A stretch of DNA of 64,000 nucleotides. It comes from Aphrocallistes beatrix (Eukaryota; Porifera; Hexactinellida; Sceptrulophora; Aphrocallistidae). Numbering within the stretch: position 1 is the first letter of the stretch; every line of letters begins with the position of its first letter. Location of the stretch: NCBI GenBank assembly GCA_963281255.1, contig OY725488.1:6855524-6919523 (forward strand), written 5' to 3'. The notes under the pieces are model-generated. The model was not told the DNA's origin, ran no database searches, and saw only the letters and a list, made by a program, of their open reading frames with translations. Position numbers and translations under genes: made by a program. This document shows, in pieces, positions 29,671-63,199 of the stretch.

Positions 29671-30324
29671 CTAGATCTGTTTGCAGCAGTTGGTCAACTT
29701 CCTGTCAGGCCCGTCCACCAGCTTATCAATCTCAATCGCCTTATCCAGTGCATCCGGTGAGTCCGATTGCTGCTGCACATGCACCCGATTGAATATTTGC
29801 CTCACAATTGACTGAAAAGATTCTTCAACATTTGTACTGTCAAGGGCAGATGTTTCAATAAAAAATAGCTCATTCTTTTCAGCGAATAATTTCGCCTCCT
29901 CAGTGGGCACAGCACGGAGGTGCCTAAGGTCACACTTGTTCCCCACCAGCATCACTACGATGTTCGCGTCCGCATGGTCTTTCAATTCCTTCAACCATCT
30001 CTCTACGTTCTCATAGGTCAGGTGTTTGGCGATGTCGTAGACGAGAAGTGCGCCTACAGCTCCTCTGTAGTAGGCGTTAGTAATCGCGCGAAACCTCTCC
30101 TGCCCAGCGGTATCCCAGATCTGGGCTTTAATAGTTTTGTTGTCAACTGGGACACTTCTCGTGGCGAATTCCACTCCGATGGTCGTACGAGATTCTAAAT
30201 CAAACTCGTTACGTGTGAATCTTGACAGGAGATTAGATTTTCCCACTCCGCTGTCTCCTATAAGTACGATCTTGAAGAGATAGTCGTACTCATCGTCTTT
30301 GTTGTAAGACATATACGTGCTCAT
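29671..30324 (-). CDS. RAB11: Rab11-like GTPase, paralogue A
   Basis: Single-exon 217-residue small GTPase, the Rab11 length. P-loop GDSGVGKS 23-30, switch I/effector [25 protein letters not shown] with catalytic Gln, [13 protein letters not shown] and ETSALDSTN. The Rab11-typical [36 protein letters not shown] is present. It ends TNCCKQI, a prenylatable CC motif. Rab11 runs recycling-endosome to plasma-membrane traffic. First of three tandem paralogues; 237 nt of its coding sequence are almost identical to paralogue C although the rest has diverged. Confidence 0.95.
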
Positions 30325-31072
30325 TTTAATATTATGTTCTATAACTAGAATACAGAATTATCTGAGCGTTTTTATATGACTGCCTATATATGTATAATTC
30401 AGAGATTACAATTGAACAAACCAAGAACTACGTAGATATTTATTAACATCGATGTATGAATTATACATGTTTTAGCTCCCAATGCAGTGGTTCATGTACG
30501 TCACTACGACTCAATCATCATCTCGATGTAATGGTAATGACGCCATTCAAAATAAAACTACCTTCAGTTGACATCATAATGAGAACAGAATCGATGTCAC
30601 GTGATCGTATTTTAGGAACGTGTGTAGAACGTTTAGGATCTTAATTTATCCTCTTGCCTAGAAAGTGCCGAGTTGTACCTGAAGTAATTATATCATATCA
30701 ATATCAGTTTTATCAAGACATTTTTCTTCTAAAAATGAGAGAAAATAATTGAAATTAGTGTGTTTTGTAATCTATTTGTAACGAATGCTAAAGTCCAGAA
30801 TGATATCAGCACATTACCGTGATGAGTGATAACAGAGTTGATTTCTGAAATAAACGAGTTATTAAACGCGTAAAAGTTAAAACGCATGTAGAATGACGGA
30901 ATAACAATATTACAGCCTCTGAGATCTGACTCTGATACTCGATCAAAACTTAAACAGGCAAACTAAAATAATAAAAATATGAAAGGAAATTCAGAGGCGT
31001 GAGAATTATATTTCAGCTAGCAGTTGTTATATTCACAGTCCACATGCATCATCCGGTTCAGGTGATCCTCCC
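30325..31072. other. spacer between Rab11 paralogues
   Basis: AT-rich; presumably the promoter of copy A and the 3' end of copy B. No repeat recognised. Confidence 0.45.
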
Positions 31073-31726
31073 TTATATGGTCTTCTTGCAACAAGGTAAC
31101 CTGAACTCAGACTCTTCGTCTATCTTGTCCAGCTCTAATGCTTTCTCGATATCATCTATCGGAGACATGGGGATGCACTGATCGTATACCAGATGGTAGA
31201 TATCCTTCACGACTGATCTGAAAGCTTCTTCTACGTTTGTGCTATTAAGTGCTGAAGTCTCGATGAAGGACATCTGATTCGACTCAGCAAACTGCTGAGC
31301 TACGTCCGTGGGAACTGCTCTCAGGTGTTTCAGATCGCATTTATTGCCTACAAGCATCACTATTATGTTACCATCCGCATGATCTTTAAGATCTTTGAGC
31401 CAGGTCAGGACATTGTCATAGGTTTGAGAGTCTGTGATGTCATAGACCAGCAGAGCTCCTACTGCCCGTCTGTAGTAGACATTTGATATAGAACAGAACC
31501 GCTCTTGTCCTGCTGTGTCCCAGATCTGAGCTTTAATATTCTTCGCATCGACAGGAACACTCTTTGTAGCGAACTCAACTCCAATCGTAGAGAGACACTC
31601 AACGGTAAACTCGTTACGCGTAAAACGAGAAAGCAGGTTGGACTTACCGACACCACTATCTCCGATCATAACGATCTTGAAAAGAAAGTCATAGTCGACT
31701 TCTTTGTTATATGCTAAGCCACTCAT
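31073..31726 (-). CDS. RAB11: Rab11-like GTPase, paralogue B (diverged)
   Basis: 217 residues, same layout: [59 protein letters not shown]-terminal LPCCKKTI. It differs from its neighbours where they agree, for example VECLS instead of LES before switch [15 protein letters not shown] instead of [13 protein letters not shown], and [15 protein letters not shown] instead of [15 protein letters not shown]. All nucleotide-binding residues are kept, so it should be a working GTPase, possibly with altered effector contacts. It is not part of the A-C conversion tract. Confidence 0.93.
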
Positions 31727-31868
31727 TCGGAATGCTTTTTTGAATGCTATGAATCGAGTGAGAAAAAAGTTAATAGCAAATAAATGTATAAATATACTTC
31801 AAAACCGCAGACTAAAATATTTTATTTTACTGATGGGATGAAATTCTCTTCGGATTGATATACGAGTC

Positions 31869-32015
31869 CAGGGGCATAACTACCATTGAGGCAGTGGAGG
31901 CAGTTGCCTCCTCGCTATTTCTGAAAGTGGTCTCCAGGCCAAGGCAGAGACCTAACCGTTGAGACATCTGCCTCCTGCTCGCCTCCTCGCTCTGGAGATT
32001 CTAGTTACGCCCCTG
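31869..32015. mobile_element. hAT-like MITE
   Basis: Ends CAGGGGCATAACTA / TAGTTACGCCCCTG, inverted with one mismatch, a hAT-type terminal motif; about 147 bp. The interior is rich in GCCTCC/GGAGGC. Flanks share only GAGTC, so the 8-bp duplication is not evident. Confidence 0.75.
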
Positions 32016-32285
32016 GAGTCTGTCTATGAATTCAGTGTGATCAAAATGTATTACATACATGCCAACCGTCCCGTTTTTGGCGGGACATCCCGATTTTTTC
32101 ACTCTTCTATTGAGCTAATTTTGACCAATGTCCCGTTTTACATGAATCTTCCCCAGTTTGTCCCTCTTTTTTGGATTCCATGCCTCCTTACAGTGGTGCA
32201 ATCAATAACTATTCGGAGAGTTTGACTGATGTAACGACCGCTACCACTACTTGTATTTATAACTAAAAATAAGAGGTATTGAAAA

Positions 32286-32984
32286 GTCGAGAGAGCATGC
32301 TCGTTAAGTCCAGAGAGCATGCTCATTAGGTCGAGAGAGCATGCTCATTAGGTCGAGAGAGCATGCTCCTTACATTTATACCTTCTTTATGTTCAAAAAA
32401 GGTACAAGTATTTACTGATTTGAATCTACTACATGCGCCCTAGATACTGTACTTCCCGTACGGAGTATCACCGATAAAAATCCTGATGTAAAATTGGTTT
32501 AAATTAGTTCGAGAAGTTTCATATACTATGTAATAACTACCTACTATTATAAGTAGGTATGATCAGCGGTGTTTTGCCAAAAATAGAAGTGGGGGGGGGC
32601 GCTTCCTCGAGCACTGGTTGAAAACCCCCCAAGCGAAAAAAGTGGGGGGGGCACAGCCCCCCCCCTAAAAACACCACTGGGTATGATGCTGGTAACCAAT
32701 GGAGGAATGGAGGAATGGCGGAACTTTCGTCCCCTGAAATGCCCTTTTCGCACCTAATGATTTCTCAATCAAAATGCCTCATTTTCACCCTTTTTTTCAA
32801 ACATACTCCACTCCAAAAGCCTCAATTTCCGTTCCTTACATATTAGGGCCCGTATATTTTGGTCTCTAATGAGACAAAAATTCCAGGGACGAAAGTTCTG
32901 CTTACCCCAATGGAGTATATAACGAGCATGCTCTCTCGACCTAACGAGCATGCTCTCTCGACTTAACGAGCATGCTCTCTCGAC
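32286..32984. mobile_element. inverted-repeat element with terminal arrays of a 22-bp unit
   Basis: The left end has four contiguous 22-bp units (32286-32373, consensus GTCGAGAGAGCATGCTCATT + two bases). The right end has three units in reverse complement (32919-32984). Outside lie AAAA and TTTT. A second inner inverted pair, CGGAACTTTCGTCCC (32719) and its partner near 32888-32902, continues the symmetry. No coding region. Foldback-type architecture. A hAT MITE is inserted inside it. Confidence 0.75.
32564..32679. mobile_element. hAT-type MITE with 8-bp target duplication
   Basis: 116 bp, ends CAGCGGTGTTTT / AAAACACCACTG, flanked by GGTATGAT at 32556-32563 and 32680-32687. The interior has several runs of 6-9 G or C (GGGGGGGG CACAG CCCCCCCC), which can fold as a hairpin or G-quadruplex. 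Nested inside the 22-bp-unit element. Confidence 0.9.
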
Positions 32985-33166
32985 TTTTTATTATAAGAAA
33001 AATAAACACATGTTACATTCACTTTAAATATCAATCAAACACGCTCTAGTCTGAAGGTATTAGTCTATGATTGACAATCAATTAATTATCTCGTTACCTT
33101 TGACGTGGCAGACAAGTCTATACAGACAAATGAGACAAGACTTGGCTCTGCTCTGCAAACTGAAGT

Positions 33167-33847
33167 CTAAACGCTCCGTTTACAGCAGTTAGGCAGCTTG
33201 ATCTCTGTCTTGTCTAGTTTGTCTATCTCAATCGTCTTATCCCCCCCGTCTACTGGTGAGTCTGCGATCCGCTGCTCGTACACCAGCTGGTATATGTCCT
33301 GTACAATCGATTCAAATGCCTCCTCGACATTAGTGCTGTCAAGGGCAGATGTTTCTAAGAATGATAGGCGGTTCTTTTCGGCGAATTGTTTCGCCTCCTC
33401 AGTGGGCACAGCACGGAGGTGCCTAAGGTCACACTTGTTCCCCACCAGCATCACTACGATGTTCGCGTCCGCATGGTTCTTCAATTCCTTCAACCATCTC
33501 TCTACGTTCTCATAGGTCAGGTGTTTGGCGATGTCGTAGACGAGAAGCGCGCCTACAGCTCCTCTGTAGTAGGCGTTAGTAATCGCGCGGTACCTCTCCT
33601 GCCCAGCGGTATCCCAGATCTGGGCCTTTATGGTTTTAGACTCCACCTGAATGCTCCGCGTGGCAAATTCCACACCAATCGTAGTCTTCGATTCAAGATC
33701 AAACTCATTTCGAGTAAACCGTGAGAGGATATTCGACTTACCTACTCCACTGTCTCCAATCAGAACGATCTTGAATAGGAAATCGTACTCGTCTTCTTTT
33801 CCCAGATTAGAAATTCCCGTAGTCATTGTTAGTGCAATAGTATTCAA
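33167..33847 (-). CDS. RAB11: Rab11-like GTPase, paralogue C
   Basis: 226 residues with [69 protein letters not shown] and C-terminal LPNCCKRSV. The annotated start may be M1 or M8 ([10 protein letters not shown]), the latter giving the usual length. 33389-33625 is 98% identical (5 differences in 237 nt) to 29890-30126 of paralogue A, while flanking coding sequence differs at many synonymous sites, indicating gene conversion. Confidence 0.94.
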
Positions 33848-39157: not shown

Positions 39158-39512
39158 ATTAGCAAAACGAAACAACATTATTTAAAGGTATGACTAAACA
39201 CTACAAAATAGACAAAGGAAAGAGAGAACGGGTATATGTAGTCAACTTCATGTGATTACTAGACCACTTATATGCTGGATTGTTTGAAAGGTGCGAAAAC
39301 AGAGTATTACATACATATTAAATAAATAATTCTCAACATAAGCATGCTTGTATAGAGCAAGTAGATTATACAAAATAAGCACTGGTAGGGAACATCTAGT
39401 TTGGAATTCTAAAGTAAAAATTATAAGTATGAAATAAAAACTAAGTTTGAAATATTATCTTGAAATATCTCACAGAGTTTCTGAAACTATTTCCAAGTTC
39501 GTTTGAATTTGT

Positions 39513-42500
39513 TCAAACAAACTTAGAAATGGCTTCAGAGACTCTGTAAGATATTTCAAAGGCATCTTTAGCGATACGCCGGATCTCTCCGCCTCCGTAG
39601 ACGAGCTCCAGAGCTTCTCTTAACTCCTCCTGGCTGTGACAGAGAGTCAACTCGCAGTATCTCCGAGATATCGCTACATTCTCCCCGCTGTACTCTGTAC
39701 CTGAGCTAACCTTAGCGACGACATTGTTACACTGATAGAATTGCAAATCTGTATTGTGTTTTATAATCTTAAGACCTCTATTAAGGTACTCGCAAGGTAC
39801 AGGCAGTCCGTCTGCTCCTAGCGTCAGCAAGTCAGGATTCCTTAGATTGGGCGCTATTCGCTGAAAGAATGGAGTTGTCCTGTCGATGGGTTTCCAACTC
39901 TCAACTCGAAGTCTTATATCATGCGTCTTTTTTAGGAGTTGTCGATCTCCTACGATAGTAGCTAAAACCCAGATATAAGGACTTTCACTAAAACTTATAA
40001 GTTTAAACTCATCGTTGAAATCCAATCTGATATCACGTGTGACTGTAACTCTCGAGTCTATCCTCCACGTGTACTGAGGCAGATTGTCTATGGTTTTGAA
40101 ACCACAGCTTTCAAGTGCGCGTTTGTAGACTAACTGTGCCTTACTGAGCTGACTGGGGTCATCAATCAGCTGGATGCCAGGGCAGAACGCACTACTGATA
40201 GACTTGATGACTTCCTTCTTTGGCTTTTCTTTCTTTGCAATGAATTTCTTTCCCGATGAAGAACCAGATAAATGCAAGCGCTCCATTTCACCTGTAAAGA
40301 ATGGGTTAGTTTCTTTTGAAGGAGAGGTTCTACTCTCTGTGAATTTATCAATAAAATCTTTACCAAACCTTTTAGATTTGACCAAACACTGCTCGAATTC
40401 TTCAAGAGAAAGGGAATCTCCAATACTCTGAAAAGTATCGACCCCATCGAGAATATAGTAAAATCCGTACCTTGTCTTAAACTCGAGGTTGTTCAAGAGT
40501 CGCGAGGTATTCACTGGGAAGCGAGACAATTGCTGCCACATTAGAGTTTGTATTCGAGCAATGGCATGTGTCTTCCAGTCGACACCTGACTCTTCATCCG
40601 ATTCAGAATCATCATTCGCACCAGAGACATCACTCGCTAGGAGAATGTCACTCTTTATATTATGGTAGTGATGCAATTTGAAACAGTTGTGCTGACAATT
40701 GCGGATTTTAACTCGCGGCGAACAAGATTGGTTCGTTATGATGAGTGCAAAGCTCCCCTCCAGCATGTAGGGATTAGACACTGATTTGTATTTATATGTG
40801 AGAGCAGTGCTGTTCTCAAGCGAAGATATTTCTGAGGAAAGTTTATGAATCGCACTCGCGGAACCTCTCCCCGATATCAATACATGGCGCCCAATTTGAT
40901 CGAATGCAATGAGAGCGCCGGTCTTATTCGCGAGTTGTGTCTTGTAGAAGTTGGTTGATTGGCGCAGTTTATCGCTCATACTAAGTGAAAATCTCTTCCT
41001 TAGCGATACTTGCGAAATTTGACTCTCAAATAACTTGGATATATCACGAGAAAAGACTAAACAATGCCAACCTTGGAATAATAACGGAGAAATCTCATTC
41101 AAAGCTCTCTTTGGGATTGTATGGGTTGGCCTATTAAGTATTGGCCATTCATAAACAATCTCCGTGGGCTCTTGCGAGGTAATTTTTGCACCGAGCCAGA
41201 AGAACTCTTCTAACATGAGACCTAAATCTTGGTCAAAATAACTGTCCATCAAATTGTTGAGAATCGTTTTGAGGTCTTCATAGCCTTCATAATATTTAGG
41301 CTTAGATTTCATTCTATCATATATGTACAGCACCAACGCCTCAAACTCTGCCGTTAAGATTATGCCCATGTTGCCTGGGGCGTTGTGTGACTTCAAGATG
41401 CCAACATGCCTCGCCCAGTGAACTAGTAGCCATAGCCAACCGAAGAAGAGGCCTCCAGTTACTCTGTAGAGATCCGTGATGTACTCAGATTTCGCTACGC
41501 CGTCGCTAGAAGCAGCAATATCAATGTTGATTTCTTCTGTGCTTCTCTTTTGAGGGGAATCGATGGAAATGGAAATAATTGGTACTTCTGAACCGGTTTT
41601 ATCCTCAATAGTATTCTGGATGCTCTGGACTGCTGGTATCGCACAAACTTTAAGGATATGTTTCTGCTTTTCCTTAGGTGTGCATCTTTCTAATTCTTTC
41701 GAATTGAAAATACATTTCTCCCCGTATGGCGTTAGCGCAATGGATATATCCAAATCTGACAAGGGTTCACACAGATACATGGACACAGATCCAAATATAG
41801 ACACGTGCAAAATTGGCGAAGGAGTTGGATAGCGCTGAGACATGAATTTCAGAATAGAATTTTTCACTTTAGGAAATGCGCTCCTCTTACTCTCAACTAC
41901 TGTGTCAATGTATTCCTTGCTTTGCCATATGTACTCTCTAGCGGTTTGACCTAATGACTTGTGCAGGTTTATACTATACCTTAGTTCAGGGAACCGCGAG
42001 GCTATTTGACAGAGATACTTTCCAACAATCCAGGAGAATGAGTAAAATATTCTTTGATTATTTTCTTGACGGTTATATACGGCCAAGTACCATGCAGAGG
42101 CCTTCGAAATGGATTCGTTCGGTGAAATATCTTGATGGAATTTTTCCCAGAATTCTTGAATAAGATATCCGATTCCTGCTCTAAGCGATTTGGTGACATT
42201 GGCCTTATCCGCTAATAAAAGTGGATGGCAGTCAATGACCAGAGCCAACATAGCTTCAGCCTCCGTTTCAATCCCAAACGAGAGCAAAATTCTCTCAAAA
42301 GCATTGGAGTAATCATGGTATTTCATTCTGGCGTCCTCCATAAATTTTGTATATCCTTTAACTTTAAAAAAATTTTTTATTGGAAAGTTGCCTGGCAATT
42401 TTTGAGTGAAATTATGCTCACCAAAATAGTTTATTAAAGTTTTCCATTCAGAGGTGTTGTAGCAGGCAGATTTGGCCAAGTGATAGAACTCTCCCAGCAG

Positions 42501-45500
42501 TTTGGTAGATGGATAAGAATTCGAGTCTTTCTTTTCCATGAAATCGGGATATCCGTTCTCAAGGATTAGGTCCTTAGCTTGCTTCGGTATAATCGGCATT
42601 ATTCCGGTTTTAGGATAGTCCACAGCTAAAGATGCTGCCTTGGCCAGCTCAATCGCTATCTTGTCTCGAGCTCCAAGGGGCATTTGGTCACAAATAGACA
42701 CGTGGTAATGCGATATTATTCCGAGCAAGTCGTTGCTGATCACTTTTCGATAAGCATCAGCTAGTGTGTCAGCACTGAATTCAGGTGCTCCACTTGAATC
42801 TACTTCACTTGGATCGACTCCAGTTAAAGATATCATTAGTTCTGATAGTTCTGATAACTTATCTGCTTCTGAATCTTCGCTATATTTTGGTCTGTTCCGA
42901 GCTTCCTCCAAAACTTCGTCATAATTCAAAGGCGGTACAGTGGCGTTTGGAGGTGGAATCAAGCTCGGATCCCAAATAATCGCAAACATATCTCCGTCTA
43001 AGTCCCCCCCACTGGTAGAAGCCGGGAGTGAAGTTGTTCCCCGAATTGGGAACACGATTACATTCCTAAGGTGTGCAAGTTCAGGTATATACACCCCTGT
43101 AGGTGTTAACAAGTCCCCAGGATGTAGGCATGGGTTTTTATAGACCAACATTCGTCCATCTAAATAAAAAAGTTCTGATTCAGCTGTTTCTTGTATCTGG
43201 ACGAATATCTCGCCATCTCGCAGCACGCCCACAGGATCTGGGATACCCATTAGCAAGCAGCCGCCCTTCACCGGGAGACGAGCTCTATTTATAAGAACTC
43301 GGATGTTGAAAGTGTAAATGCACCTGAGTAGTGATAAGTAATAAGGTTCACTGAGGATATCAAAGTGTCTGCTCGTTTCCCTGAAGTAATTAGGTAGGTG
43401 GTGGATTAACTCTGTCTGAGCTATCTCATATTGAGTAAATATCTTCGCTATATTTTCTAAATAAAGCTTATACAGCTCTCGTAATCTTGGTTTGGGATCC
43501 CAATTCCCGTCTGGATCCTCTAAAGAAGTGAGCAATGTTAGCATTTGCATGTTCAGGAACAGCTCGTTGTATTCTGAGAATTTCACAACACACAAATTAT
43601 CTTCAGTCCAGTCGATCTTCTTCATCGAATCTCTGTAAACTATGTCGCAATCTCGACGAGCATGAATAAAATCTGGGTCATAAGCATCGTCAACAATGGT
43701 CAACACTCCTTTCAGGCCGGCAAGTCTAATTTGAAGAGCTGATGGTTCCACAGCATAATGCGGATATATCGGTTTAACTTTCTTTATGACCTCCTCAGCT
43801 AAACGCCGTCTTATCTTACCAGCACCATCAGTTAATTTCGTGCCGTCCTCAGCAGAAATATCCCGTAAAGATAGTGTATTTTGCTCTGAAATGGGGTAAC
43901 TTGGATAATCGGAGGTAGAGAATAGCCCTAACCTTGAAAGATACTTGATTTCATTATTAATTTGTGTCTGGCCTAGTAATTGAGAGCGAATCCATTTGAT
44001 CTTTCTTGAGGCAGACGACGGCGTGTCTTGTATGTGAATGAAAATCGCGCGCTTGCTTCTAAGCTGACTGCCACTGCAAGTGAGGAAATAAAATGTATTT
44101 CCATCAATTGTTAATCCTTCTTCCATTATATCTCGAACGCGATCTAAAACACGTTCATCTTGTGGAAGAGGTCCTCCCTTTTCTTCTCGAAATGCTAAGT
44201 TGAGAAAGCGTTCATCTGGAAACTTTCTGTACAACCTATTCTCTTGCGTGAGAATTTGCTGCAGACAGATGACGCGAGATGGAGTCACGATGGCAGATTC
44301 GATGTAGCGGTAATTGGGCGGGGTGATTGGGGAGTACGACCTGATATTCTCACGTACGTATCTTAGCTGCTCAGTGAAGAATAGTGTAAGATCAAAAAAG
44401 TAATGAGTCTTGGCATCGTATATTTTAGAAACAATTCTTGATAGCGTATTTGTTACAATCTGAATCCCTAGTTCATTAAAGTAAGCTTCCAGCGTATTCA
44501 GAATTATGTCAATCGAGTGCTCAAGAATGTACACATTTCTGCAGCATTTCAGAACAGACAATGTCCATAAGCAATCTTGTACAGTTTTTTCATAATAAGA
44601 AGGTTGAGAGGTCAGTGAATTTGGCGCAAAGGAATTTAGAGCGGATATTGTGACTCGGGTATCGAAAAGAGGGACCGGAAATTCAGTAGAAGAATGCAGG
44701 AGCGTCCACAAGCGATACCATTCCGAATTTGTATATGTAATGGTAATAGCAACCACAGGGAATTCGCTGAAGTTCTGTAGTAAATCACAATTGTCAGATG
44801 TTCGCCTTTCTGATTTTCCTTTTTCACCCAGAAACGCATACCGCACAAAGGGAGAACATTTCAACGGGATAAACATAGTAACTTCGCTCTCCTTCCAATC
44901 TAGTAGGATGAACCGGTGAATCGAAGGTAGAAATATCTCAATTGTCAATTGGGGACCGATTTGAATACAAAATGACTCTTTAGTTTGAAAATTTAAAACA
45001 ACGTTTCCGACTTGTTTCAAATTGTCATTAAATTGAAAAGTGTTTTTGGAAAGGAATTTCCCCCACAGGATAGCTCTAACCGGAAGCGAAAGAATTTCTT
45101 CTGATTCCTCTTTCACATTCACTTCCAATCGGCTCCATAAGTTTGTAGATTCGTTATTCAAAGCGAAATTCCATTCGATCGAGAGCTGGTTGTACCGTTG
45201 GTATATGTTGTGTGATTGGGACTGTATGCCGACGATTAGGAAAGTGTCCCCTGGCGGGAAGATACCTTTCGATTTCCACTGGGAGTCACGGTTAGCTTGG
45301 TCGATGTGCTTCATCTTTAGGAAGTACTTCTCACGGAGAATATCAGCTAAAGTGTCTTGTATATCGATCAGCTCACAGCTGCCAGACAGATACACTTCTA
45401 TGGCACACTCGGAGGGTTGTATGGAGTTATAAACTGGAGACTCAGACTTTTCCGATTCAATCTTTTGTTGAATGTCTTTGGTTAATTTAGAAGGTATATC

Positions 45501-47423
45501 AGCGTTCGTCTTGATTACCTCGAGTATACTTCTGAGCATTATATCGCTCGCCTGGATATCATCAAATATCTTCTCCTCGCTCTGAGAGAGAATTAGGATG
45601 AACTTGCTGCTCTCCAATTTCCTAGCCCGTCCTTTGCTCTGTTTATAAGACAGCAGTGACTTGATGCCATCAAACCGTATAACTATGTCACATTCCGAGA
45701 CGTCTAGCCCTTCCTCTATCACCGAGGTACTAACGAGAAGATTGCAATTGCCACAACGGAACCCGTCAATTATTTCTTTCTGTTCGTACTCCCACTCCAT
45801 TCCCAATTGACCATGCTGCCCGACTATTTTTTGAGGAGAAAACTTTTTTTCTACTAATGGAAACTGTTTTAAGACTGTTGTCAGAATTTGAGCAATTTGT
45901 CGTGTTTGTACAAAAATGATAACTTTAGAGTCTTCAGACAAGTCTTCAAGGATTCGGAGCAGTATCGATAACCTGGGAGACGGGGTAGTACTACGGTGCA
46001 GCCTGGAATACACGGGCAGATTTTCCAGGGTCTGATTTGCATAGGTTATCCCCAACAAATCGGTAATATCCAGAGCAGTGCACATTGTCTTCATGGACTT
46101 TATATATTCGTCAAGAGCGAAAAACTTACTCAAATGTTCAAGCACTCTCATTAGATTAATTCGATTCTTGGGATCTTTCCAGTCTTCAAGGGTGTTGATT
46201 TGATAATTCGGGTTCCCAAGCAACAAATTGACGTAATTCGCGAATTTGCGTAATTCATCTACTAGTATTCTAATCTGATCCCCGAATATTTCATTGGTGT
46301 TAGCTGGGACAATAACCTTCTCCGTGGAATCATTGCTGATATAAGCGAAAGATTCATTATAATAGACGGAGGCGCCTAAAAACAGGGAAATAAACTCGAC
46401 TAAGGTAAGAATGGCACCCTGAATGTCTCCCTTCATAGAGCCAGAAGGAGGAGACGCGGTGAGGCCAACAACTCGCGGTTGGTTCTCTTTTCGGCAGTCC
46501 CTAACCAAGTTTAATATTCTGACATAGCCATGATCTCCAGTGGCGTGATGGCACTCATCCAAAATGACACAGCAAAATTTAGTGATGCGGACTTCTCTCT
46601 CCAAGTTGAGGTAGGCACCAGCAGTAGAGACCAAAATGTCGAACTCTCCACTTTTCAACTGACTGCGGTATTTGTTCGTATTCGTCTCACTGCAGTAGCA
46701 ACACACGCTGAGACGGGTATTGCAATTAATCGCTTCTCCTTGCTGAAAAACCAACGGAACACGCTCTACAATGAAAAGTACCATGTGGTTGGGGTTTAAT
46801 TGTATCATTTTGGCAGCGATGATTGTCGCGATCAATGTCTTACCTGATCCAGTCGGAAGGACGATTATCAAATTCCTTTGTAGAGCTTCTATGTAAGCTG
46901 CGGTTTGATAATCCCTGGGTACGATGGGCGAAGTGAGGATATCGTTGTAGCGGAAGTGAGACAAATCATTGATGTCAGGAAAATTGATCGGCTCAATTGG
47001 TTCAAGTTGTTGTGGGAGTTGACACATAGTTTCTTCAGTTTTACTGTGCTCAGATGGTATGATGCTGCCGAAAAAGGATTCGTAATTACGGACTTCAATC
47101 CGATTGAAAGGTGCCTGCTCATGCACAGAACGCCAGTTTTTAGATTTCATTTTCAGCTTACTCTTCAGCAAAATTACTTTTTCATTTCCAAAGGCGCAGA
47201 TAATTGTTCCACTTGGTCCCAAAGGATGCTTACTCCCAAGCGGACTCGTGCATTTAGGACACGTAATAATCGGCTTTCTGGTTGTTTCATTTATAACATG
47301 GAAATTCTTCTCCACAAAAACTAGCCTCTCGTGTTTGACAATTAGATTAATCGATTCATTTTTTAGAAAAAAACAGATATCTTCAAATTTCAAAATGTTT
47401 TCTCCACACTGCATACAATCCAT
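39513..47423 (-). CDS. helicase-RdRP-nucleotidyltransferase fusion protein (single-polypeptide RNA-directed RNA polymerase complex)
   Basis: One intronless frame of 2,636 residues. Residues 1-90: two CxxC pairs (C3/C6, C55/C58), possible zinc-binding domain. 165-620: Dicer/RIG-I-type superfamily 2 helicase with PTGSGKT 190-196, DECH 289-292, LTAS 311-314, STSVIEEGLDV 565-575 and QSKGRAR 595-601. About 1040-1650: cellular RdRP of the QDE-1/EGO-1/RDR class, with NPCLHPGD 1430-1437 and the catalytic DLDGD 1474-1478. About 1850-2080: Pol-beta/TRF4-Cid1-type nucleotidyltransferase with G1878-S1879, the metal-binding D1890-x-D1892 and third aspartate D1968, then a PAP-like central domain (LLVHWARHVGIL, TAEFEALVLYIY). 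2100-2636: no domain recognised. All catalytic residues are present. Helicase-RdRP fusion is known in Dictyostelium Rrp proteins; helicase, RdRP and NTase are separate subunits (Hrr1, Rdp1, Cid12) in fission yeast. Role in small-RNA amplification is inferred. Confidence 0.93.
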   Translation of the reverse strand: MDCMQCGENILKFEDICFFLKNESINLIVKHERLVFVEKNFHVINETTRKPIITCPKCTSPLGSKHPLGPSGTIICAFGNEKVILLKSKLKMKSKNWRSVHEQAPFNRIEVRNYESFFGSIIPSEHSKTEETMCQLPQQLEPIEPINFPDINDLSHFRYNDILTSPIVPRDYQTAAYIEALQRNLIIVLPTGSGKTLIATIIAAKMIQLNPNHMVLFIVERVPLVFQQGEAINCNTRLSVCCYCSETNTNKYRSQLKSGEFDILVSTAGAYLNLEREVRITKFCCVILDECHHATGDHGYVRILNLVRDCRKENQPRVVGLTASPPSGSMKGDIQGAILTLVEFISLFLGASVYYNESFAYISNDSTEKVIVPANTNEIFGDQIRILVDELRKFANYVNLLLGNPNYQINTLEDWKDPKNRINLMRVLEHLSKFFALDEYIKSMKTMCTALDITDLLGITYANQTLENLPVYSRLHRSTTPSPRLSILLRILEDLSEDSKVIIFVQTRQIAQILTTVLKQFPLVEKKFSPQKIVGQHGQLGMEWEYEQKEIIDGFRCGNCNLLVSTSVIEEGLDVSECDIVIRFDGIKSLLSYKQSKGRARKLESSKFILILSQSEEKIFDDIQASDIMLRSILEVIKTNADIPSKLTKDIQQKIESEKSESPVYNSIQPSECAIEVYLSGSCELIDIQDTLADILREKYFLKMKHIDQANRDSQWKSKGIFPPGDTFLIVGIQSQSHNIYQRYNQLSIEWNFALNNESTNLWSRLEVNVKEESEEILSLPVRAILWGKFLSKNTFQFNDNLKQVGNVVLNFQTKESFCIQIGPQLTIEIFLPSIHRFILLDWKESEVTMFIPLKCSPFVRYAFLGEKGKSERRTSDNCDLLQNFSEFPVVAITITYTNSEWYRLWTLLHSSTEFPVPLFDTRVTISALNSFAPNSLTSQPSYYEKTVQDCLWTLSVLKCCRNVYILEHSIDIILNTLEAYFNELGIQIVTNTLSRIVSKIYDAKTHYFFDLTLFFTEQLRYVRENIRSYSPITPPNYRYIESAIVTPSRVICLQQILTQENRLYRKFPDERFLNLAFREEKGGPLPQDERVLDRVRDIMEEGLTIDGNTFYFLTCSGSQLRSKRAIFIHIQDTPSSASRKIKWIRSQLLGQTQINNEIKYLSRLGLFSTSDYPSYPISEQNTLSLRDISAEDGTKLTDGAGKIRRRLAEEVIKKVKPIYPHYAVEPSALQIRLAGLKGVLTIVDDAYDPDFIHARRDCDIVYRDSMKKIDWTEDNLCVVKFSEYNELFLNMQMLTLLTSLEDPDGNWDPKPRLRELYKLYLENIAKIFTQYEIAQTELIHHLPNYFRETSRHFDILSEPYYLSLLRCIYTFNIRVLINRARLPVKGGCLLMGIPDPVGVLRDGEIFVQIQETAESELFYLDGRMLVYKNPCLHPGDLLTPTGVYIPELAHLRNVIVFPIRGTTSLPASTSGGDLDGDMFAIIWDPSLIPPPNATVPPLNYDEVLEEARNRPKYSEDSEADKLSELSELMISLTGVDPSEVDSSGAPEFSADTLADAYRKVISNDLLGIISHYHVSICDQMPLGARDKIAIELAKAASLAVDYPKTGIMPIIPKQAKDLILENGYPDFMEKKDSNSYPSTKLLGEFYHLAKSACYNTSEWKTLINYFGEHNFTQKLPGNFPIKNFFKVKGYTKFMEDARMKYHDYSNAFERILLSFGIETEAEAMLALVIDCHPLLLADKANVTKSLRAGIGYLIQEFWEKFHQDISPNESISKASAWYLAVYNRQENNQRIFYSFSWIVGKYLCQIASRFPELRYSINLHKSLGQTAREYIWQSKEYIDTVVESKRSAFPKVKNSILKFMSQRYPTPSPILHVSIFGSVSMYLCEPLSDLDISIALTPYGEKCIFNSKELERCTPKEKQKHILKVCAIPAVQSIQNTIEDKTGSEVPIISISIDSPQKRSTEEINIDIAASSDGVAKSEYITDLYRVTGGLFFGWLWLLVHWARHVGILKSHNAPGNMGIILTAEFEALVLYIYDRMKSKPKYYEGYEDLKTILNNLMDSYFDQDLGLMLEEFFWLGAKITSQEPTEIVYEWPILNRPTHTIPKRALNEISPLLFQGWHCLVFSRDISKLFESQISQVSLRKRFSLSMSDKLRQSTNFYKTQLANKTGALIAFDQIGRHVLISGRGSASAIHKLSSEISSLENSTALTYKYKSVSNPYMLEGSFALIITNQSCSPRVKIRNCQHNCFKLHHYHNIKSDILLASDVSGANDDSESDEESGVDWKTHAIARIQTLMWQQLSRFPVNTSRLLNNLEFKTRYGFYYILDGVDTFQSIGDSLSLEEFEQCLVKSKRFGKDFIDKFTESRTSPSKETNPFFTGEMERLHLSGSSSGKKFIAKKEKPKKEVIKSISSAFCPGIQLIDDPSQLSKAQLVYKRALESCGFKTIDNLPQYTWRIDSRVTVTRDIRLDFNDEFKLISFSESPYIWVLATIVGDRQLLKKTHDIRLRVESWKPIDRTTPFFQRIAPNLRNPDLLTLGADGLPVPCEYLNRGLKIIKHNTDLQFYQCNNVVAKVSSGTEYSGENVAISRRYCELTLCHSQEELREALELVYGGGEIRRIAKDAFEISYRVSEAISKFV

Positions 47424-48339
47424 GAGGAATAGCTAAATATGAAGATATAATATTAGATACTCTGATACTGGAGATACGTAGTTAATGAACGGTCCCGTTC
47501 TAGCTGGACGCCCGCTTATTTGGATTCAATACTTTTCTATTTGTCCTAGGATGTTAGTTCTAATAACATGACAACAAAATTCTCACAGCTATTCTATGCA
47601 TCATTGATGATTAACACTGAATATAAAAATGGCATTAAATTTAAGCGAAAAGTTGAACGAAAAATAGAAAAAATGTCGAAAAATGGACGAATGTCTTCTT
47701 CGTACCTTTTCACATTTAAAAAAGTCTTGGCGCATATACTACTAGTTCCTTGTAAATAATTGTAAAATATCTTAAAAATAATTTTTAAATATTTGAAAAA
47801 TACTTGAGTTATTAAAAAATTTGGTAACAAGTATGAAATAAGGGGTTATAAAACTCACAATAATATATCAAAACTTTACAAAATGTTCAAAGTAACCTTT
47901 CTTGTAATTATTTTAACCGCTCTCCCTACAGATAAAAAATTCTTTTTGTACTCATCTTCCGGGATGCTTCCAAGACACCGCTGAATGGTCCTCCCAAGTG
48001 GCACCCAATGGTCAAAAGTCTTCCCTGCGAGGTATTTTTTAGGATGGTCTAATTCGGCAAGGCCCATGGAATCTAATTTCTACTTTACCTTCCTCGATTT
48101 ATTTGGTCTGACTTATCGTACAATTATTTGATTTCTCTGAATCCGCATCCTGGGCCGTCCCCAAGTTTCATCTCCTATACAGGTCCCAAATAATCGCCTT
48201 TTATTACAATGGCTACTACATAGGAACTTTTAGGAGAGACTTTCGAGCATTATTTTGACTCAGAAAGCAAATGTGGTCAGTAATTGTAAAATAAGATGTA
48301 TCTAATGTAAACGAAAGTATACAAATAATTTATCATATT
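47424..48339. other. upstream region of the RdRP fusion gene
   Basis: Presumed promoter side. A short reverse frame near 47876-48067 (with RTIQRCLGSIPEDEYKKN) is coding-like but isolated, and I do not recognise it. Possibly a transposon-gene remnant. Confidence 0.4.
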
Positions 48340-48770
48340 GATCTTAAAATATAATATTCGAACTCTACACCCCTGAAACACCCATGTCATCAACCGTTGG
48401 AAGCCAGTCTCTAGCCAATTTTTGTGATTTCTTTACTTTATAAAACAATTGTAAACAAAAGTAAACAAATAATTTATCATATAGATTCGAAATATAATAC
48501 AGTCAGGGTCGCTTATTGTGAACCACCAGGGGACCAAAAAATATGTTCATAATAGAGATACTTCATATTAAGCGAACTTGATTCAATAAAAATCCTATCT
48601 AAAAAATGAAATTGGGACCAGGAGGTTAGTTCATATTAAACGAATGTTCATATTAAGCGGGTTCATAATAAACTACCCTGACTGTATTCGAACTCTACAC
48701 CACTGAAAACCCCATGTCAACCGTTGGAAGCTAGTCTCTAGCGAATTTTTAAAATTCATCAAATGGTGTT
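48340..48770 (-). repeat. satellite-like dispersed repeat, reverse orientation (related units at 63215-63500)
   Basis: Two units share ATTCGAACTCTACACCMCTG, a CCCATGTCA-ACCGTTGGAAG segment and AGTCTCTAGCSAATTTT. They occur at about 48358-48425 and, split by a MITE, 48485-48499 plus 48687-48755. The same family lies in forward orientation in tandem at 63215-63500. Confidence 0.8.
48500..48684. mobile_element. pogo/Tc1-like MITE with TA target duplication
   Basis: 185 bp, ends CAGTCAGGGT / ACCCTGACTG with further inverted symmetry, flanked by TA (48498-48499, 48685-48686). Removing it restores the continuous satellite unit ATATAATATTCGAACTC, which proves the insertion. Confidence 0.9.
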
Positions 48771-49010
48771 ATAATATGTATATCAAGGTGTGAAAATATA
48801 CACAAAACCCTGTAACATAATTGAGACATCTATATAAGTTATTGCTTTGAAGTATTAATAATAAATTAATAATAATTACAATTATTATATAATTATTATA
48901 CAATTATTATATAATAATTATATAATAATTATACAATTATTATATAATTATTATATTATAATTGTAATTATTATTAATTTATTATTAATATTTCAAAGCA
49001 AACTTATATA
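48751..49010. repeat. large near-perfect palindrome (continues at 50359-50438 beyond the Tc1 insertion)
   Basis: Left arm from AAAATTCATCAAATGG through GAGACATCTATATAAG. An inner palindrome runs to 49010. The remaining right arm (GATGTCTCAATTATG through CCATTTGATGAATTTT) lies at 50359-50438. Before the Tc1 insertion this was about 340 bp of inverted repeat centred near 48920, able to form a long hairpin. Confidence 0.85.
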
Positions 49011-50356
49011 CAGGGTGTCTCAAAAGTTTTTTCCGGTTGTACTAATACCCATAACTTGTAAACTATAGTATAGAAATCTTAAATTATTTGCCAATATAAT
49101 CTCCTTTAAGTTGGATACAAGAATTAATTCGAGCAGGCATCCCTGAGATTAAATTCTCCAAAATCGACGGTGTGAGTCCATTCCAGATATTTTTCAGGTG
49201 ATTAGCGAGCTCTGACAAGTTGGTGGCTGGTCTCTTCTTGTCAAGCTCTGCTTGAATAATCGCCCAAAGATTTTCAATGGGATTTAAATCTGGTGAATTG
49301 CTAGGCCAAATTCCTTTAGCCCAGTACCCTGGAATATGATTGGAAAGCCAGGTTTGCGTCTTTTTGGCGGTGTGGGCAGGAGCCGCATCCTGCATAAAAA
49401 TGGCCTCGGACATCAAGCGACACATTTTCCGTTCTGTCACTGGGCCTGTAGTTTTCCTTCTCCTCAAGGTAGGAAGGCAGGACTTCTCCAAAATTTCTTT
49501 TATATAGTATTCTGCATTTACAGATTGTTTGGGAGGAAGAAAATGGAGTTCCGAGATCCCAGTGCCACTCATCATCCCCCAGACCATGATTTTAGGCGGG
49601 AATTTAACTGTCTGAATAGGCTCAATGTTTCGCGCATTCTGACTCCAAACCCGATCGTTCTGCCGATTTGTTGGATGGAAAAGTTCAAAAGAACTCTCGT
49701 CACTAAAAAGAACCCTTTTCCAATCCTGTTCATCCCAAAATTTATGACTAAGGAAGAATTGTAGCCGCTGTTCCTTCTGTTTTTCCGACAATTTTGGTTG
49801 CGAAGGTCTTTTGTATGGCTTTGCTCCGATGGTATTCCTTAAATAACGATGTATCGTGTCTTTACTAACTCTCTGTGAATTTTTCGAAACGATACAAGCA
49901 AGTTTTCGCGTAGACTGCCAACGTTTGCCAAGAGATTTTCTAATATTGATTTTAGGAACGCGAGAAAGCCGTGTTGGACGCCCAGACCGAGGTTTGACCG
50001 CCATAGATTTGCCTGATAGAATCTTCGTTTTCCAATTCCAAACAGTCTTAACTGTAACCCCTAAGGTCTGAGCAATCTGCTTCTGGATAATACCAGATTC
50101 TAACATACCGATTGCACGTAATCTCTTACCAATTCTGGAATTTTGGACATCCATAATATAAACTATATATTGATGATGAAGTGAGGTCAAGAAAATCACA
50201 AGATGTTAACAAATACAATTGATTTGTATTTCATTCAAACATTATGACCGTTCAAGTTAAATATTATCAAAAAAGGGCGAGTTTAAATGCAAGCACTGAT
50301 GTAAAAGGAATATTTTGATAAATTATAAAACCGGAAAAAACTTTTGAGACACCCTG
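49011..50356 (-). mobile_element. complete Tc1/mariner (DD37E) transposon
   Basis: 1,346 bp with perfect 28-bp terminal inverted repeats beginning CAGGGTGTCTCAAAAGTTTT, and TA duplications at 49009-49010 and 50357-50358. It carries one uninterrupted transposase gene. Perfect ends and an open frame imply a recent insertion. Confidence 0.95.
49084..50199 (-). CDS. Tc1-like DD37E transposase
   Basis: 371 residues as opened; the true start is probably M16 (MDVQNSRIGKRLRAIGM). The N-terminal paired helix-turn-helix (QKQIAQTLGVTVKTVWNWK) is followed by a GRPTRLSR AT-hook-like linker and a second HTH. Catalytic residues are D167 (FSDESS), D271 (MQDAAPAHTA) and E309 (SPDLNPIENLW), with 37 residues between the last two, hence DD37E. 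No frameshift or stop. It lies within the element 49011-50356 and probably is, or recently was, functional. Confidence 0.93.
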   Translation of the reverse strand: MIFLTSLHHQYIVYIMDVQNSRIGKRLRAIGMLESGIIQKQIAQTLGVTVKTVWNWKTKILSGKSMAVKPRSGRPTRLSRVPKINIRKSLGKRWQSTRKLACIVSKNSQRVSKDTIHRYLRNTIGAKPYKRPSQPKLSEKQKEQRLQFFLSHKFWDEQDWKRVLFSDESSFELFHPTNRQNDRVWSQNARNIEPIQTVKFPPKIMVWGMMSGTGISELHFLPPKQSVNAEYYIKEILEKSCLPTLRRRKTTGPVTERKMCRLMSEAIFMQDAAPAHTAKKTQTWLSNHIPGYWAKGIWPSNSPDLNPIENLWAIIQAELDKKRPATNLSELANHLKNIWNGLTPSILENLISGMPARINSCIQLKGDYIGK

Positions 50357-50438
50357 TAGATGTCTCAATTATGTTACAGGGTTTTGTGTATATTTTCACA
50401 CCTTGATATACATATTATAACACCATTTGATGAATTTT

Positions 50439-51128
50439 ATACAATAAATATATAATAATTATATAATAATTATATAATAATTATATAATTATTATATAAT
50501 AATTATATAATAATAAATAATCCAGGATTCAAAAGTAACAAATAATTTATTTTACAATTATTTTATAATAATTATATAATAATTATATAATAATTATATA
50601 ATAATTATATAATTATTATAATTATTATATAATTATTATATAATAATTATATAATAATAAATAATCCAGGATTCAAAAGTAACAAATAATTTATTTTACA
50701 ATTATTTTATAATAATTATATAATAATTATATAATAATTGTATAATAATTATATAATAATTATATAATAATTATAATTATTATATAATAATTATATAATA
50801 ATTGTATAATAATTATATAATTATTATATAATTATTATATAATAACTATATAATAATTATATAATAATTATATAATTATTATATAATAATTATATAATTA
50901 TTATATAATAATTATATAATAATTATATAATAATTATAATTATTATATAATTATTATATAATAATAAATAATCCAGGATTCAAAAGTAACAAATAATTTA
51001 TTTTACAATTATTTTATAATAATTATATAATAATTATATAATAATTATTTAATTATTATATAATAATTATTATATAATTATTATAAAATAATTGTAAAAT
51101 AAATTATTTGTTACTTTTGAATCCTGGA
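50439..51128. repeat. AT-rich satellite of ATAATTAT repeats with hairpin potential
   Basis: Long arrays of ATATAATAATT in both orientations. They are punctuated by a 50-bp block starting AATAATCCAGGATTCAAAAG at about 50515, 50660 and 50965 in direct orientation, and by its inverse at 51085-51127 (CTTTTGAATCCTGG). The whole region is self-complementary. Confidence 0.85.
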
Positions 51129-63039: not shown

Positions 63040-63199
63040 GTTTAAACATGTTTAAACACATTTAAAAACATGTTTAAACGTGTTTAAACATGTTTAAACA
63101 CGTTTAAACACATTTAAAAAACATGTTTAAACGTGTTTAAACATGTTTAAACACATTTAAAAACATGTTTAAACATGTTTAAACATGTTTTTTAAACAC
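63040..63199. repeat. GTTTAAACATGTTTAAACAC tandem palindromes
   Basis: About ten alternations of ACATGTTTAAAC and ACACGTTTAAAC, each self-complementary. Same block as 62150-62362. Confidence 0.85.

Follow-up and report, generated by a model that had tools for sequence, protein, structure and literature searches.

Does one gene encode a helicase, an RNA-dependent RNA polymerase (RdRP) and a nucleotidyltransferase (NTase) in a single polypeptide? The question is raised by a long open frame in the 64-kb stretch of DNA analyzed here, which we call the window. The original prediction had joined the three enzymes in one uninterrupted frame of 2,636 residues. That frame is confirmed at 39513..47423 and lies on the minus strand, which the prediction did not state; it opens with ATG, its terminal stop is its sole stop, and in-frame stops lie upstream. 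At its own base composition, the probability that a frame of this length stays open by chance is about 5e-73. The predicted motif positions (PTGSGKT, DECH, QSKGRAR, NPCLHPGD, DLDGD, GS, D1890/D1892 and D1968) are all correct. The union of three enzymes holds well for the helicase and RdRP, both far above their Pfam cut-offs, and is less firm for the NTase, which falls below its own. The single frame, the domain order and the intact catalytic motifs are established here, and the features of the gene, in window coordinates, are these:

39513..47423, minus strand: fused helicase-RdRP-NTase, single open frame (ORF call, 2,636 aa)
47094..47423, minus strand: candidate RIG-I C-terminal-domain-like zinc domain, tentative, residues 1-110 (PF11648, E 0.044)
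45444..46928, minus strand: SF2 helicase of Dicer/RIG-I type with intact motifs, residues 166-660 (Pfam DEAD, ResIII and Helicase_C; PDB; motifs)
44289..45443, minus strand: interval between helicase and RdRP core, residues 661-1045 (one sub-threshold Pfam match, E 0.12)
42483..44288, minus strand: cellular RdRP core, PF05183, residues 1046-1647 (Pfam, 390 bits; RDR2 chains, E 1.6e-49)
42990..43004, minus strand: DLDGD catalytic motif, residues 1474-1478 (motif search)
41979..42482, minus strand: C-terminal part of the RdRP, residues 1648-1815, matching the end of RDR2 (second stretch aligned with RDR2, ending at about 1810)
41094..41936, minus strand: probable NTase of the non-canonical poly(A)/terminal uridylyl transferase type, residues 1830-2110, boundaries approximate and set by eye (Pfam, hhalign, TENT HMM)
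41748..41792, minus strand: GS...DLD, residues 1878-1892, with G1878, S1879, D1890 and D1892 (alignment, motif search)
41520..41522, minus strand: third catalytic Asp, D1968 (alignment, motif search)
39516..41093, minus strand: C-terminal region without a named Pfam domain, residues 2111-2636

An assembly chimera or a contaminant could produce such a frame, and the ORF is intronless while some neighbors (the cullin, by eye) are split into short frames. We consider this origin most improbable, as animal-type genes flank the frame on both sides, the window holds no N, and the codon usage of the gene correlates with that of its neighbors at r 0.88, the highest value among 13 genes (0.64-0.85 for the other 12), in a comparison that favors it as the longest of them. 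The codon fit is a weak argument against recent acquisition from outside. G+C content by 2-kb block ranges from 24 to 52%, with 29 of 32 blocks within 32-46%. Gene density had suggested a compact sponge such as Oopsacas minuta as host, but with a published G+C of 36 +/- 2.1% for that species (PMC10280926) and many blocks here above 36%, the match is poor. In a six-frame test with a codon table built from 11 neighboring frames, the true frame ranked first in six of the eight modules of the protein, the NTase included, and second in residues 1648-1815 and 2461-2636. The ten neighbor frames scanned include an OATP transporter, an SH2/SOCS-box protein, cullin, OGG1, acid sphingomyelinase, BUD31, an INCENP-like protein and a DDE_3/Tc3-type transposase. 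The animal host of the original prediction gains support from the OATP and SOCS-box neighbors, which we take to be animal-type by taxonomic spread and which therefore point to an animal genome. Elsewhere in the window, three similar small-GTPase frames, Rab-like by eye, stand in tandem at 29671-33847 on the minus strand.

The helicase assignment is borne out by Pfam, by similarity to solved structures and by its motifs. On the whole protein, DEAD and Helicase_C score 70 and 61 bits, both well above cut-off, and the motifs comprise PTGSGKT (190-196), DECH (289-292), LTASP, STSVIEEGLDV and QSKGRAR (595-601). A sequence search of the PDB placed AncD1D2 first among helicase chains (E 7.8e-41, residues 167-646), and the nearest PDB helicases are Dicer and RIG-I-like receptors (among the 60 of 105 matches listed), while NCBIfam returned nothing but helicase families for the whole protein among the 25 of 38 matches listed. 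The helicase is thus of the same type as in Dicer and RIG-I-like receptors. The protein does not have the makeup of a Dicer, since no RNase III, PAZ or CARD family was listed for it in Pfam at E up to 1, nor that of a RIG-I-like receptor, since Pfam listed no RIG-I C-terminal domain (CTD) after the helicase; any such domain here precedes the helicase instead.

The cellular RdRP is equally secure, with PF05183 matching at 390.4 bits against a curated cut-off of 23.8 over essentially its full length (profile positions 1-579 of 582). The DxDGD catalytic motif of eukaryotic RdRPs is present in the form DLDGD, and NPCLHPGD occupies residues 1430-1437. The nearest solved RdRPs are chains of RNA-dependent RNA polymerase 2, presumably plant RDR2, which align in two stretches from residue 1087 to about 1810 (E 1.6e-49), ahead of QDE-1 (E 3.4e-15). 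Because this alignment continues to about 1810, the RdRP module includes its C-terminal head, and the start of the NTase lies beyond it. The RDR2 chains are themselves 1,131-1,172 residues long and, unlike the fusion protein, plant RDR2 is not known to carry a helicase or an NTase.

Behind the RdRP, residues 1830-2110 very probably hold a real NTase, a judgement drawn from the sum of profile and motif results and from the position after the RdRP. The complete GS...DxD...D catalytic set of terminal nucleotidyltransferases (TENTs) is present at 1878-1892 and 1968. Profile searches place MTPAP-like_central (PF22600) on the catalytic site, at residues 1852-1970 with 20.5 bits (E 5.5e-4) when the whole protein is scanned and 22.4 bits (E 1.4e-4) when the NTase region is scanned alone, in both cases under the curated cut-off of 27. 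Polbeta (PF18765) coincides with it (E 0.047), so that two Pfam NTase families meet at one place. Moreover, an HMM built from stretches of four solved tail-adding enzymes in the PDB (Trf4, URT1, CutA and TUT7) scored the fused frame at 10.7 bits (E 0.006), first of the 246 frames of the window (stop to stop, at least 60 aa), with the runner-up at 5.0 bits; none of 2,000 shuffles reached 10.7 bits, the best of the 754 with a listed score attaining 5.9.

Similarly, hhalign matched the NTase region to the four solved TENTs at P 1.4e-4, with a probability of only 53%, and two control segments of equal length from the fusion protein gave P 0.19 and 0.87, with probabilities below 1%. When the whole protein was the query, hhalign aligned residues 1874-1913 (P 0.0027, probability 11%). 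Both the HMM and hhalign matches are confined to the first catalytic block of about 40-45 residues, which leaves the downstream part of the NTase less secure; a joint alignment with the TENTs places the VPI segment before the third Asp, and D1968 itself, at 17-24% identity. No NTase was found among the four PDB matches of phmmer for residues 1742-2258 (E up to 10), no PAP-associated domain was listed for the region by Pfam at E up to 5, where filters drop weak matches, and NCBIfam had no match for the NTase region. A single-sequence AlphaFold model of residues 1790-2130 was unusable (mean pLDDT 36.1). The Pol-beta-type NTase originally proposed therefore stands as regards its intact GS/D/D/D residues and the first rank of the frame in the TENT profile, and falls short in its Pfam score (20.5-22.4 against 27) and hhalign probability (53%).

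The fold and the GS/D/D/D signature are common to NTases, OAS and cGAS among them. The domain might accordingly be dead, structural, or an OAS/cGAS-like signal maker, which would turn the protein into a sensor; the signature shared with OAS and cGAS, the RIG-I-type helicase context and the weak Pfam score would suit such a protein. Its catalytic residues are present, however, its VPI segment aligns with those of TENTs, the sole Pfam NTase matches are to the MTPAP-like and Polbeta models, and no OAS or Mab-21 family was listed by Pfam, whose filters hide weak matches. We regard a sensor as unlikely and prefer a tail-adding enzyme.

The N-terminus resembles RIG-I, MDA5 and LGP2 in the spacing of its Cys pairs, with CxxC at 3-6 and 55-58, and we give an even chance to its being a RIG-I-CTD-like domain. 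PF11648 matches residues 2-104 over profile positions 4-109 of 117, at E 0.044 and 14.4 bits against a cut-off of 25.6, and the rival models DUF4931_N (E 0.075) and Zn_ribbon_8 (E 0.12) score nearly as well. A phmmer search of the PDB with the N-terminus returned one match (E 0.27) and no chain of RIG-I-CTD type, and the single-sequence AlphaFold model of residues 1-127 was unusable (mean pLDDT 35.8). Two long stretches of the protein are free of assigned domains. A phmmer search of the PDB with residues 642-1045 found nothing at E up to 5; toward the C-terminus, Pfam found no family in 39516-40520 and no named domain beyond the NTase in 40464-42500, where only DUF5470 appeared (E 0.89). Such domain-free stretches (661-1045 and 2111-2636) are what one would expect if the one gene gave rise to separate working products through alternative transcripts or proteolysis, a notion that the lack of any in-frame stop speaks against and that we find quite improbable.

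The end of the gene falls within an inverted repeat:

39460..39559, minus strand: inverted repeat with 48-nt arms and a 4-nt loop, predicted to form a hairpin in the mRNA (repeat scan, RNA folding)

The arms lie at 39512-39559 and 39460-39507, and the 5' arm contains the last 44 coding bases of the fused gene and its stop codon. The arms differ at six positions, all transitions, four of which leave G-U pairs on the mRNA. Folding of 161 nt around the hairpin gave -70.9 kcal/mol (z -10.75), and none of 200 shuffles did as well. A scan for ungapped hairpins (40-nt arms at 85%, loops up to 12) found eight separate places in the window, and the hairpin at the stop codon is the least A+T-rich among them (G+C 0.32, against 0.00-0.23 for the others). 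It could have arisen by inverted duplication, give rise to small RNAs or act as a feedback element. At 63067-63157, AACATGTTTAAAC-like units with G+C 0.23 make up another repeat able to form a hairpin. Upstream of the fused gene lies a transposase frame (49084-50199, minus strand) with DDE_3 and a Tc3-type HTH; the interval that separates it from the fused gene holds direct repeats at 48306-48750. Very A+T-rich palindromic arrays occupy 48842-49001 and 50433-51077, their listed hairpins having 0-4% G+C, and copies stand 11 bases apart at 48866-48975.

Our main reading, to which we assign a probability of about 0.6, is that the locus is an intact animal gene for a helicase-RdRP fusion with a C-terminal TENT-like NTase, acting as a one-chain amplification enzyme of RNA silencing. 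The gene would yield one mRNA and one protein with all three activities. The Dicer/RIG-I-type helicase would engage double-stranded or structured template RNA and translocate along it, the RdRP would copy the template into complementary RNA, and the NTase would extend the 3' end of template or product with untemplated nucleotides, in the manner of the template-marking MUT-2/RDE-3 of C. elegans. Unwinding, synthesis and tailing could thereby be physically coupled, in this order of steps, and the protein could serve siRNA amplification or the silencing of viruses or transposons. A broader version seems to us rather improbable: a four-module RNA amplifier, in which a RIG-I-CTD-type zinc domain would sense RNA ends ahead of the helicase, the RdRP and the writer of 3' tails, with the hairpin at the stop codon of its own mRNA as a feedback substrate for silencing. 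If the main reading is true, the helicase, RdRP and NTase that are partners in yeast and worm form a unit tight enough for fusion, with 1:1:1 stoichiometry, and a one-protein system joining template choice, copying and tailing would be available for study.

We think it unlikely that the protein serves RNA repair, RNA quality control or another process outside RNAi. A study that screened 538 animal proteomes for RdRPs proposes, according to the available text, that those of Branchiostoma take no part in RNAi; the same text gives RNAi amplification as the sole known function of eukaryotic RdRPs, and the words helicase and nucleotidyltransferase are absent from its main text (PMC6396948). The attached helicase of Dicer/RIG-I type likewise argues against a role outside RNAi. 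The Branchiostoma proposal nevertheless counts against our main reading, since animal RdRPs need not act in RNAi, and so does a study of Nematostella in which no secondary siRNAs were detected, as far as its available text goes (PMC12768352).

How much of this architecture is new depends on relatives of the gene. The helicase-helicase C-RdRP order is known, from Pfam-predicted domains, in Dictyostelium, peronosporomycete oomycetes, Hydra and Nematostella, as reported in the available text of PMC4791657; the double fusion is hence already known in animals, and novelty rests on the NTase. The fused gene has the same arrangement, helicase before RdRP in one frame, by Pfam. The new elements would be the NTase and possibly the N-terminal RIG-I-CTD-like domain (E 0.044). 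No triple fusion appeared among the titles and abstract openings listed by literature searches on RNAi or the fusion, a result that does not prove novelty. The original prediction knew of no described triple fusion, and that part agrees with the literature searched; it had omitted the helicase-RdRP half known in Hydra and Nematostella.

Since the NTase here lies below the Pfam gathering cut-off, known relatives may carry one unnoticed. The protein could then be a plain orthologue of the Hydra, Nematostella and Dictyostelium proteins, which share its DEAD-Helicase_C-RdRP order in the available text of PMC4791657; the triple architecture would be ancient and common, its annotation alone being new. 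We hold this to be a real possibility, a little short of even. The lone eukaryotic RdRP gene that we found outside the window supplies no evidence against it. A search of viral contigs with the whole fusion protein gave no relative, and one with an RdRP alignment gave 31 pattern matches and no relatives among them; in genome contigs there were 228 pattern matches and two relatives, the contigs L001 and L002, which belong to a MAG labelled Deltaproteobacteria and agree in their ORF coordinates along the length they share. Domains were scanned on L001 alone. At L001:7651-10792, and at the same coordinates in L002, lie a HET-domain gene and an RdRP gene of fungal type (PH_fung_RdRP). Judged from sequence, the two contigs are fungal contamination within a bacterial genome collection, and their RdRP gene is of a different branch from the fusion protein: the whole fusion protein, searched by tblastn against L001, gave a significant match solely at residues 1024-1608, and no helicase or NTase family was found in the 7 of the 12 L001 ORFs (at least 150 aa) that were scanned. 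For relatives, the fusion would predict an overlooked NTase in the cnidarian helicase-RdRP proteins.

Among known systems, the RDRC of fission yeast comprises Rdp1 (RdRP), Hrr1 (helicase) and Cid12 (NTase), and so likewise brings helicase, RdRP and NTase together, in three proteins there and in one chain here. In Tetrahymena, Rdr1 forms complexes with NTases, and in C. elegans DRH-3 works alongside the RdRP RRF-1. According to the available text of PMC11347159, the C. elegans NTase MUT-2/RDE-3 appends poly(UG) tails, which are believed to flag templates for RRF-1. An RdRP is thereby paired with a tail-adding NTase, a pairing that our gene would share; the worm proteins are separate and gathered in Mutator foci, whereas ours would form one chain. 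Amphimedon is stated to lack an RdRP in the available text of PMC6211395, a contrast with the fused gene if its host is a sponge. The helicase-RdRP proteins of Hydra, Nematostella, Dictyostelium and oomycetes are identical to the fusion protein in the order DEAD, Helicase_C, RdRP. As described, they differ from it in the NTase, the word nucleotidyltransferase having no occurrence in the main text of PMC4791657, and in the candidate N-terminal zinc domain, which the available part of that text does not describe for them.
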